NCBI RefSeq assembly: GCF_004208635.1
Contig: NZ_CP035806.1
Coordinates: 930,001-994,000 of the forward strand
Length of the DNA stretch: 64,000 nt
Source of the DNA: Leucobacter triazinivorans
GTDB lineage: Bacteria > Actinomycetota > Actinomycetes > Actinomycetales > Microbacteriaceae
Reading direction: 5' to 3'
A model generated the notes under the pieces. That model searched no databases and was not told the origin of the DNA. It saw nothing but the letters and a program-made list of their open reading frames with translations. Positions 24,199-27,629 of the stretch are shown here, piece by piece; the stretch's first letter is position 1; each line of letters starts with the position of its first letter. Both the position numbers and the translations under genes were made by a program.

Positions 24199-25266
24199 CT
24201 ACATCGCGGCGAGCCGGGCCTCCTCGTCCATGCGGACACAGGACTCGATCACGGGATCCAACGCGCCGTTCATCACGGCGTCGAGGTTGTAGGCCTTGTA
24301 CCCCGTGCGGTGATCCGCGATGCGGTTCTCCGGGAAATTGTAGGTGCGGATGCGCTCCGAACGATCCATGGTGCGGATCTGGCTCGACCGGTGCGCTGAG
24401 GCCTCGGCTGCTGCCTCCTCCTGCTGCCGGGCGAGAAGCCGGGCGCGCAGCACGCGCATCGCGGCTTCACGGTTCTGCAGCTGCGACTTCTCGTTCTGCA
24501 TGGCGACCACGATGCCGGTGGGAAGGTGGGTGATACGCACGGCCGAGTCGGTGGTGTTGACCGACTGCCCGCCGGGGCCACTCGAGCGGTAGACGTCGAT
24601 CTTGAGATCGTTCTGGCTGATATCCACCTCTTCCGGCGCGTCCACTTCCGGGTAGACGAGCACGCCGGTGGTGGACGTGTGAATGCGCCCCTGCGACTCG
24701 GTGACGGGCACACGCTGCACGCGGTGCACGCCGCCCTCGTACTTCAGGTGCGCCCAGACACCCTGCGACGGGTCGTTCGCGTTCGACTTGATCGCCACCT
24801 GCACGTTCTTGTAGCCGCCCAGATCGCTCTCGTCCTTCTCGAGGATCTCGGTCTTCCACCCCTTCGCCTCGGCGAAGTGCAGGTACATGCGCAGCAGGTC
24901 GGCCCCGAAGAGGGCCGACTCGGCACCGCCCTCGCCGCCCTTGATCTCGAGGATCACGTCGCGTGCGTCATCGGGATCGCGCGGGATCAAGAGCCGCCGC
25001 ACCTTCTCCTGCGCCTCTGCCAACGCCGATTCGAGCAGCGGGATCTCCTCGGCGAAGCCCTCGTCCTCCCTGGCCAGCTCGCGCGCCGCGTCGAGGTCGT
25101 CGCCCAGCTGCTGCCACTGCTCGTAGGCCGCCTTGATCTTGCTGAGCTCGGCGTAGCGCCGGTTCACCTTCTTCGCGCGCGCCGCGTCGGCGTGGAGCGC
25201 CGGATCGGCGAGTTCCTCCTGCAGCTGCCCGTGCTCGACGAGCAGCTGCTCGACCTGCTCGAACAT
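24199..25266 (-). CDS. prfA: Peptide chain release factor 1
   Basis: Release factor recognising UAA and UAG on the ribosome. 355 residues, the usual size. GGQ at 232-234 in [16 protein letters not shown] catalyses peptide release; the PVT tripeptide at 187-189 is the RF1 stop-codon anticodon. Its ATG overlaps the TGA of the upstream rho-locus gene (ATGA), so expression is coupled to it. The following gene is an MBL-fold protein rather than the prmC methyltransferase often found here. Confidence 0.97.
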
Positions 25267-27404
25267 CAGAACGTGCCGGTGCGCTGGACCTCGGCGAGCA
25301 GCGCCGCGTTCGACGCCGAGCCGCGGAGACGCTGGAGCACCTTGTCGGAGGCGTCGTCCTCGCTCAGCGATTCGCGGATCGTCGCGTGCGCCGCGAGCTC
25401 GGCGCTGCCGAGCATCGCCTCGGCGTTGCGGGTCAGCGAGGCGGAGGGGTCGACGACCGGGGCCAGGCCGGGGAGCGACTTCTCGAAGCGGACCTCGCTG
25501 TTGGCGACGGCGCGCACCTCGCGCAGCAGCGTCTTGTCAGCCGCGATGCCGGTCTTGGCGTGGACCGTCGCGAGCACGGTGAGCGAGCCGCCGTTCTCGA
25601 CGTTGCGAGCCGCAGCGAGCAGACGCTTGATCTGGCCGAGAGCGAACTCGTCGATCTCGTCGAGGCCGAGTCGGGCGGGCGTGTGCTGCACCTGCGCGTA
25701 GGCCCGCGCCAGACGGTTCAGAGAGTCGACGAGAACGACGACGTCGTGTCCGAGCTCCACGAGGCGCTTGGCGCGCTCGATCGCAAGCTCCACAACAGTG
25801 GCCTGATCCTCCGCCGGACGGTCGAAGGTGGCGGCCACGACCTCACCCGCGATCGTGCGCTCGAGCTGCGTGGCCTCCTCCGGCTGCGCGTCGGTCAGCA
25901 CGAGCATGAGGTGCGCCTCCGGCGCGTTCGTGCTCACGGCTCGGGCCAGCTCGGCGAGTACGGGCGCACCGGCCTGGCGGGCGGGCAGCACGAGCAGTCC
26001 CCGCTGGCCGAGGCCCACGGGAGCGAGAAGGTCGATCGCACGGCCCAGCACGCGGTCGGCCGTGGTCTCGAGGCGCAGGCGATCCTGCGGGAAGAGGGGC
26101 GTCAGCTCGGCGATATCGGTGCGCTTCTCGTTCTCCTCGACGGGTCGTGCGTTGACGCTGTCGATCTTGACGATCGCGTTGTACTTCTGGCGCCCGCCGC
26201 TCTCGCCCTCTCGCGGCTGACGGATCGCACCGACCACGGCGTCGCCTCGACGCAGGCCGTACTTCTTGACCTGGCCGAGCGAGACGTACACGTCGCTCGT
26301 CCCCGGCAGATAGCCGCTCGTGCGCACGAAGGCGTAGTTGTCGAGGACGTCGAGGATGCCCGCGATCGGCAGCAGCACGTCGTCCTCAGTGATCTCGGGC
26401 TCGAGATCGTCGTTCTGGCCGCGGCGCTTGCGATCGCGCTGCCGCGTGCGACTGGAGCGCGACGAGGCGTCGCCGTTCTTGTCGTTCCTGTCGCCGTTCT
26501 TGTCGCCGTTCTGCGACTGACCGCGGTTCTTGCCGTCATCGCCCCCGGCGCTCTGCTCTGCGGCCTCGGTCGTATCGGCACCGTCGCTCTTCTGCCCGCG
26601 GCCGCGCCCACGACGGTTGCGGCCGGGCTTGTCGCCGTCGCCGGAGGCCTGCTCGCCCTCGGACTTGGTCGCCGAGGCCTTCGCCTCGGCGGGCTTCTGG
26701 TTCTCCGACTTCTGGCCCTCGGAGTTCTGGCGCTCGGGCTTCTCCGCCTGCGTCTTCGCCGCCTGGTTCTTCGATCCTTCGGAACCACCGACCTCGGTTT
26801 TCTGGCCCTCTGCATCACCGGCGTCGGCCGCGGTCTCCACGGTCTGGGCGCGGCGACTGCGGCCGCGCTTCGTCGGAGCAGTGCCGGTCGACTCGGTGGC
26901 AGACGCGGCTTCGCCGGACTCCGCCGCCGGAGCCTCAGCGGCCGAAGTCTGCGCGGCCGGAGACTCAGCCGCCGAAGTCTTCGCGGCCGGAGCCTCGTCG
27001 GCCGGTGCCTCGACGGGCTTCTTGCGGCTGCGCGTGGCGCGCTTCTTCGGCGCCTCCACCGGGGCATCCTCGCTCGCGGCAGCGGCGGGCGCGGGCGCGG
27101 TCGACGCCGCCTCGGGCGCGGTCGACGCCGCCTCGGGCGCGGTCGACGCCGCCTCGGCCGCAGGCTCTTCGACCTTCTTGCGACTGCGCGTGGCGCGCTT
27201 CTTCGGCGCCTCCTCGGCAGCCGGAGCAGCCTCAGCGGCCGGAGCCGTGTCGGCAGCAGGAGCAGCGTCAGCAGCCGGAGCCGCCTCGGCCCCCACGGTC
27301 TCGCTGGTCGCGCCGGCTGCGGCGGTCGCACGTCGCGAGGCGCGTCGGCGCACCGGCGCGGTCTCCTCGGCGGGCGTGCTGGTGGTCTCTTCGTTCGTTT
27401 CCAC
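25266..27404 (-). CDS. rho: Rho homologue with degenerate ATPase site
   Basis: 712-residue protein at the canonical actinobacterial rho position, upstream of and overlapping prfA. Residues 1 to about 330 are disordered, rich in Ala, Glu, Lys and later Gly/Arg/Asn/Asp; I see no Rho_N (SAP-like) domain. The RNA-binding cold-shock part (about 338-440; [33 protein letters not shown]) is well kept. In the ATPase part the Walker A region reads [11 protein letters not shown] instead of APPKAGKTMLL, the catalytic glutamate is gone (TDAQPEE for IDERPEE), and Q-loop and R-loop sequences are unrecognisable; Walker B ([15 protein letters not shown]) remains. Start GTG 27404 with SD GAGAGGAAG. It should bind RNA but not hydrolyse ATP. 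Confidence 0.9.
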
Positions 27405-27629
27405 GTTCTTCCTCTCGGAACGGCGCCGGAACAGCGGGCGCATTCGGCCTCGCCTTCCCGCGCTCATGCACAGATGTGCGTATCGGGATCACCGGACGAA
27501 ATGGTCGCGGTGAGGAAATCGACCCACATCCCACGCTGGTCGGGCGAGCGGCGACTGCTCACTGCCCGAACCCTTCGCTCGCGATTCGCTCGGCAACCGT
27601 CTGGGTCTCGGCGACGCGAACTGACGCGG

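Follow-up and report, generated by a model that had tools for sequence, protein, structure and literature searches.

A Rho-like protein of Leucobacter triazinivorans that has lost its ATP site and RNA-channel loops and retains the primary RNA-binding site

The termination factor Rho is usually regarded as a motor, with an RNA-binding site that serves to load it. Most of its key residues are conserved across bacteria, in a comparison of more than 1200 species (PMC4499133). Replacing the catalytic glutamate of Escherichia coli Rho (E211A) abolishes ATP hydrolysis and leaves ATP binding and oligomerization unaffected (PMC4499133), and the matching E386A mutant of Mycobacterium tuberculosis Rho (MtbRho) does not hydrolyze ATP either, according to the accessible part of the same paper. 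Here, we describe a rho-like gene in a 64,000-nucleotide (nt) stretch of the Leucobacter triazinivorans genome (the window, to which all coordinates refer; equivalent residues are given in E. coli Rho numbering). We found that its product has lost the ATP site and the RNA-channel loops of Rho, while the primary RNA-binding site is conserved just as tightly as in relatives with a normal motor. We found no description of a motor-dead Rho in the literature covered; a 2024 survey of Rho diversification in Nucleic Acids Research (PMC11347177) lay outside that coverage, and priority in print is not settled.

Compared with Rho as represented by the curated equivalog model TIGR00767 and by the E. coli and M. 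tuberculosis proteins, the window protein is alike in its place before prfA (a prfA match lies beside rho in 29 of the 30 best-scoring relatives, within the stretch around rho), its RNA-binding domain, its overall fold, its Walker B strand, and its arginine finger. It differs in lacking the Walker A lysine and threonine, the catalytic glutamate, the R-loop Lys326, and a Rho_N domain, in having a rewritten Q-loop, and in scoring 357.3 bits against a TIGR00767 cut-off of 509.45. The laboratory mutants E211A and E386A (PMC4499133) carry the same Glu-to-Ala change as 37 of the 38 motor-dead Leucobacter sequences; in Leucobacter, however, this change has been maintained in nature, together with loss of the P-loop and the channel loops. 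As in the rho-less lineages, namely, Bacilli (PMC13323073) and cyanobacteria (PMC13289151), no working Rho motor would be expected, but those lineages lost the gene, as far as the accessible parts of these papers describe, whereas Leucobacter retains a constrained RNA-binding half. The model NF041509 (paralog_Rho2, "Rho, short form") also describes a Rho relative, and the window protein matches it across the whole core; it nevertheless fails the cut-off (331.8 versus 628 bits), and no normal Rho stands beside it.

Motor and RNA-site residues of the window protein

The open frame runs from 25266 to 27467 on the minus strand and encodes 733 amino acids. Its start is plausibly the GTG at 27404, because a GAGGA lies 5 nt upstream and relatives read VETN, VEQN, or MESN at this point. 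The features of the locus, all on the minus strand, are as follows.

25266..27404, minus: gene for the Rho-like pseudo-ATPase, with its GTG start at 27404 in a frame that is open to 27467
27410..27414, minus: Shine-Dalgarno-like GAGGA
26388..27404, minus: low-complexity N-terminal part, Ala/Pro/Glu then Arg/Gly-rich, residues 22 to 360, with no Rho_N domain
26139..26363, minus: Rho_RNA_bind domain by Pfam (primary RNA-binding site), residues 369 to 443
25437..26042, minus: degenerate ATPase core, residues 476 to 677
25957..25989, minus: Walker A region, reading [11 protein letters not shown], with G500 in place of K184 and A501 in place of T185
25875..25895, minus: catalytic loop TDAQPEE, E211 to A527 and R212 to Q528
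25716..25745, minus: Walker B strand, D265 retained as D581
25617..25673, minus: Q-loop region of Rho, replaced here by [19 protein letters not shown]
25542..25544, minus: R-loop position K326, now A642
25428..25430, minus: arginine-finger position R366, retained as R680
24199..25266, minus: prfA, whose start overlaps the rho-like stop (TGATG); used as divergence yardstick and tree gene

An initial annotation, made from the window sequence alone, had described a Rho with a near-canonical RNA-binding part, a kept Walker B, and a destroyed ATPase site, and the residues bear this out. The GKT of Walker A is absent (K181 is R, G183 is A, K184 is Gly500, and T185 is Ala501), and the catalytic loop has lost both its glutamate and its arginine (Ala527 and Gln528). 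D265 (Asp581), R269, and R366 (Arg680) are retained. In the secondary RNA site, both the Q-loop and the R-loop are replaced, as had also been claimed (T286 is L602 and K326 is A642), but the stretch KGTGNME, which had been taken for the R-loop, lies about 10 residues past Lys326, the residue that the accessible part of PMC4499133 places in that loop; both stretches are replaced here.

The Rho_RNA_bind match (PF07497) reaches 84 bits against a cut-off of 27. All seven checked RNA-site positions, which we take from the structural literature to be F62, F64, R66, D78, Y80, R109, and Y110, match those of normal relatives (F62 being Tyr and R109 being Lys). The core, by comparison, gives a weak ATP-synt_ab match by Pfam (43.5 bits, residues 476 to 677). 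The protein just reaches the cut-off of the looser Rho model NF006886 (315.9 versus 315 bits). Among solved structures, M. tuberculosis Rho (7oqh) is the closest in sequence, at 393 bits. The low-complexity part closes in a basic stretch, [14 protein letters not shown], that relatives share. Pfam finds no Rho_N domain in the window protein, as annotated; this lack is not tied to motor loss, because Rho_N is also unfound by Pfam in L116, a relative with all checked motor residues intact. It is likewise unfound in L036 and is found in L056 and L061.

A TIGR00767 search over the whole genome (3.48 Mb, one contig, 98.9% complete) found no second Rho, matching only the window gene and one further protein at 39 bits. 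The latter was rejected as a candidate, being the F1 ATPase subunit AtpD (495 bits). The window gene is thus the sole Rho found in this genome, and the proposal that its product is a regulator competing for Rho sites is not supported, because there is no second Rho to compete with. The broader expectation is supported: a maintained RNA-binding protein that should neither hydrolyze ATP nor translocate, encoded by a genome that lacks an intact Rho.

Motor loss across Leucobacter and other genera

The annotation had considered a single gene; the loss extends through most of the genus and occurs separately in other genera. We searched 54 Leucobacter genomes, our own included, and found one match each in 52 (the window sequence and 51 others), the two misses being 72% and 76% complete. 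The gene is present in all 45 genomes with completeness of 90% or more and contamination of 5% or less; 8 of the 52 matches have a stop within their aligned part. K184 is retained in 14 sequences and lost in 38, the latter referred to here as motor-dead. Position 211 is Glu in 14, Ala in 37 (all but one of the motor-dead sequences), and Thr in 1. D265 is retained in 49 of 52, R366 in 27, and Lys or Arg at position 326 in only 5, while all seven checked RNA-site positions are retained in 52 of 52. Position 326 carries neither Lys nor Arg in 9 of the 14 sequences whose ATP site is intact. The RNA-channel contacts may therefore have been lost before the ATP site, and this series is a natural set for asking which Rho function disappears first. 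Some motor-dead proteins (L033 to L035, L049 to L055, L104, L105, and L108 to L111) are also C-terminally shortened, with cores of 294 to 341 residues versus 378 in the window protein and with the checked RNA-site residues retained.

The family survey covered 398 genomes of 85 genera, of which 391 had a match at 1e-30 and 343 exceeded the TIGR00767 cut-off. Among the 48 genomes below it, 10 were Leucobacter, and 28 of the other 38 were examined. Six of these (G096, G114, G152, G197, G233, and G316) had matches that are fragments at contig ends and were excluded from counts; the aligned fragments (L094, L096 to L098, L103, and L114) have normal motifs where covered, and L113 and L115 fall outside the alignment. 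The remaining 22 genomes, from eight genera (given here as g numbers), have altered motors. The lysine is lost in 5 of 5 sequences of g6, with five different P-loops, and is replaced by Arg in 6 of 6 of g67 and in the single sequences of g15 and g27. Glu is lost with the lysine retained in g13 (2/2) and g18 (1/1), Arg212 is lost in g30 (4/4), and the channel loops are altered in g51 (2/2). The g67 proteins match those of freshwater metagenomes and uncultured Microbacteriaceae. In one g15 protein (L099, from a 0.9-Mb genome), the P-loop reads SGRTT, the catalytic loop reads VGIRPEE, and the RNA site is altered (F62 to Cys and Y110 to His), so that the RNA grip may also be in the process of being lost.

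Our first set of normal relatives consisted of the 30 best-scoring ones, a choice that flatters the contrast with Leucobacter, and we added 26 lower-scoring relatives from 12 genera that are still above the cut-off. All 26 retain E211, R212, and D265, and 24 retain K184. The two losses (L295 and L301, reading AGTT and AGRT) are both in g16, making it the sixth genus without the lysine, after Leucobacter, g6, g67, g15, and g27; judged by these motifs, the motor change extends above the curated cut-off. Because L295 and L301 still pass that cut-off, a rho match does not show Rho-dependent termination, and many such proteins are named "transcription termination factor Rho," which is a warning for annotation. 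R366 is kept in 16 of the 26, and the ten sequences without it comprise nine of g20 and g73 (L290 to L293 and L296 to L300, with Leu or Met at this position) and one of g16 (L301, with Val).

Of 148 genomes drawn from across the class, 143 passed the TIGR00767 cut-off. The five failures were G000, whose sequence was the only one of the five examined, the fragmented drafts G448 and G501, and two genomes from a single other family (G463 and G557). The last two, each listed as 100% complete, have Rho matches below the cut-off (E values of 1.3e-144 and 2.8e-142), and other members of their family vary widely in score.

The number of losses was assessed on a tree of PrfA with 112 rows, made without the 26 added relatives; it represents one gene and has many weak forks. 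Leucobacter, g6, and g51 form one clade on this tree, beside L116 with its normal motor, and g67 lies with g15, g30, g27, g13, and g18 elsewhere among normal genera. The fewest lysine-state changes on the tree number 10. A single loss for all motor-dead Leucobacter was not rejected (approximately unbiased [AU] test, P = 0.124), and a single origin for these and g6 is doubtful (AU P = 0.032). Including g16, we count at least four separate lysine losses, a cautious figure that is a judgment rather than a test.

Divergence of the RNA-binding and motor domains

To compare rates, we used sequence pairs with PrfA identity of 85 to 95%; such pairs share ancestry and are not independent. The 38 motor-dead Leucobacter sequences are 88.3% identical in the RNA domain and 59.9% in the motor domain (625 pairs), and the 14 lysine-keeping ones are 86.8% and 63.9% identical (86 pairs). 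The corresponding values are 88.7% and 94.1% for the 30 best normal relatives (84 pairs), 86.1% and 82.9% for the 26 lower-scoring ones (36 pairs), and 86.8% and 90.4% for all 56 (147 pairs). For the best 80 named actinobacterial loci among the matches listed, none of which is named Leucobacter, they are 94.0% and 96.2% (146 pairs). Motor-dead pairs matched for PrfA divergence are therefore as similar in the RNA-binding domain as pairs of normal relatives, but not in the motor domain. Among these 80 loci, one, L161 of Nocardioides sp. Root190, has an intact P-loop lysine (SDAGKT) and Ala at position 211 (VDARPEE).

When the motor-dead sequences are set against the 30 best relatives, the proportion of nonsynonymous differences (pN) within each set is nearly the same in the RNA domain (0.071 versus 0.070) and far apart in the motor domain (0.253 versus 0.036), with synonymous differences (pS) high and partly saturated. 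In the 30 best relatives, 50 RNA-domain columns and 224 motor-domain columns are fixed at 95%; the motor-dead set retains 47 and 61 of these, respectively. The motor domain is nonetheless still under purifying selection, constrained rather than neutral, because its omega in close pairs having a value (YN00) is 0.01 to 0.11, compared with 0.00 to 0.04 for PrfA; with the intact frame, this agrees with the annotation of a maintained protein. In addition, 16 motor columns are fixed anew in the 38 motor-dead sequences, with another residue at 80% or more (e.g., E211A, S230A, H239Q, and E333R).

Possible function and competing explanations

We hold with moderate confidence that the gene encodes a maintained Rho pseudo-ATPase, descended from rho, that binds RNA, is unable to translocate, and retains a passive job dependent on its RNA grip. 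The protein would bind pyrimidine-rich single-stranded RNA, and it is predicted to fold and probably still assemble as Rho does; lacking ATP hydrolysis, it would neither pull RNA nor terminate by translocation. Its passive job could be to shield, park, or recruit nascent RNA, possibly assisted by the basic low-complexity tail. Most of Leucobacter has probably given up motor-driven Rho-dependent termination. A wider idea, that the RNA grip of Rho has its own motor-independent function, held while the motor was repeatedly dismantled (in Leucobacter, g6, g67, g27, g16, and others), is tentative, and we would rather bet against it; its boldest form, in which Rho ends or arrests transcription through binding alone, is improbable. 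Because this family has repeatedly shed the motor while keeping the loading site, one can test whether Rho RNA binding acts without translocation, and also how these high-GC bacteria end transcription.

Several observations weigh against this interpretation. The Rho fold match of the window protein was aided by an alignment built of Rho relatives. The motor contrast depends on the comparison set, because low-scoring normal relatives are already at 82.9%. Conservation of the RNA domain is not universal, given the altered F62 and Y110 in the one sequence of g15 and an RNA-domain identity of 76.4% in g6. Tests for a genomic consequence drew on 41 genomes, each represented by 40 kb or, in the case of the window, by 64 kb; their power is low and their results weigh little because our home-made gene caller is crude (coding fraction, 0.67 to 0.90). 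In this weak test, no switch to intrinsic termination was seen, the terminator excess over shuffles being 2.9 per 100 kb in motor-dead genomes versus 4.8 in normal-Rho relatives (P = 0.22). Coding-strand G minus C was -0.009 in motor-dead genomes versus -0.025 in normal relatives (P = 0.011), contrary to relaxed Rho avoidance.

The other comparisons were no more decisive. With the same low power, intrinsic terminators showed no rise over normal relatives at convergent gene ends (10/120 versus 12/164) or co-directional ends (10/186 versus 5/182), and the co-directional matches equal background, since the antisense controls gave 9/186 and 10/182. Purine content, a test modeled on the relaxed bias of rho-less Bacilli in the accessible part of PMC13323073, did not differ from that of normal relatives (0.4935 versus 0.4911, P = 0.43) and was lower than in lysine-keeping Leucobacter (0.5006, P = 0.029), which favors relaxed avoidance; G minus C did not differ in the latter comparison (P = 0.34). 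Composition signs on the loss of Rho termination are thus mixed and terminator signs flat, so the initial suggestion that such termination was given up follows from the sequence but finds no clear sign in these tests.

The protein might instead be a relict on its way out: with Rho dispensable, it would decay slowly, tolerated as a folded RNA-binding protein and retained mainly since misfolding is harmful. The raised motor pN fits this, as do the graded TIGR00767 scores within the one genus, from 546 bits (L036) through 462 (L042), 402 (L047), and 347 (L011) to 279 in the C-terminally shortened L050. However, the RNA domain shows no decay in Leucobacter, motor omega is far under 1, 16 motor columns are newly fixed, and the gene persists in every near-complete genome, the internal stops notwithstanding, which leaves the relict explanation unlikely. 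Less likely still is a terminator that binds RNA and RNA polymerase and traps the complex without a motor. Such a terminator would fit the retention of the RNA site, the fold, Walker B, and, in the window protein, the arginine finger, as well as the lack of any rise in intrinsic terminators that would replace Rho, and for MtbRho a motor-uncoupled mechanism had once been put forward; yet the accessible part of the paper that mentions this proposal (PMC4499133) states that MtbRho needs a hydrolysis-competent catalytic site to disrupt elongation complexes.

Were another ATPase or helicase to drive termination with the window protein as its RNA-binding partner, the retained grip would be reconciled with the lost motor; nothing positive points to this, and TIGR00767 matches only AtpD besides the window gene, although no search for other partners was made, and we give the idea very little weight. 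That the frame is retained only through translational coupling to prfA is largely refuted: the overlap of the rho stop and prfA start (TGATG) occurs in the window and in 7 of 36 other motor-dead loci with a prfA match, but 99 to 157 nt separate the genes in 16 of 37 such loci, and coupling leaves the conserved RNA site unexplained. An error of sequencing or assembly, which the initial annotation had named as a possible source of the Walker A change, is refuted, because 37 other Leucobacter sequences share this loss, as do other genera.

Two minor observations concern the locus and its annotation. Four terminator-like hairpins lie on the plus strand at 26162 to 26693, antisense to the rho-like gene; with 1.9 expected, they are probably due to chance. 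Public annotation of the Leucobacter proteins P0010, P0018, P0020, P0024, P0026, and P0039 is uneven, with the name "hypothetical protein" given to some and "transcription termination factor Rho" to others.
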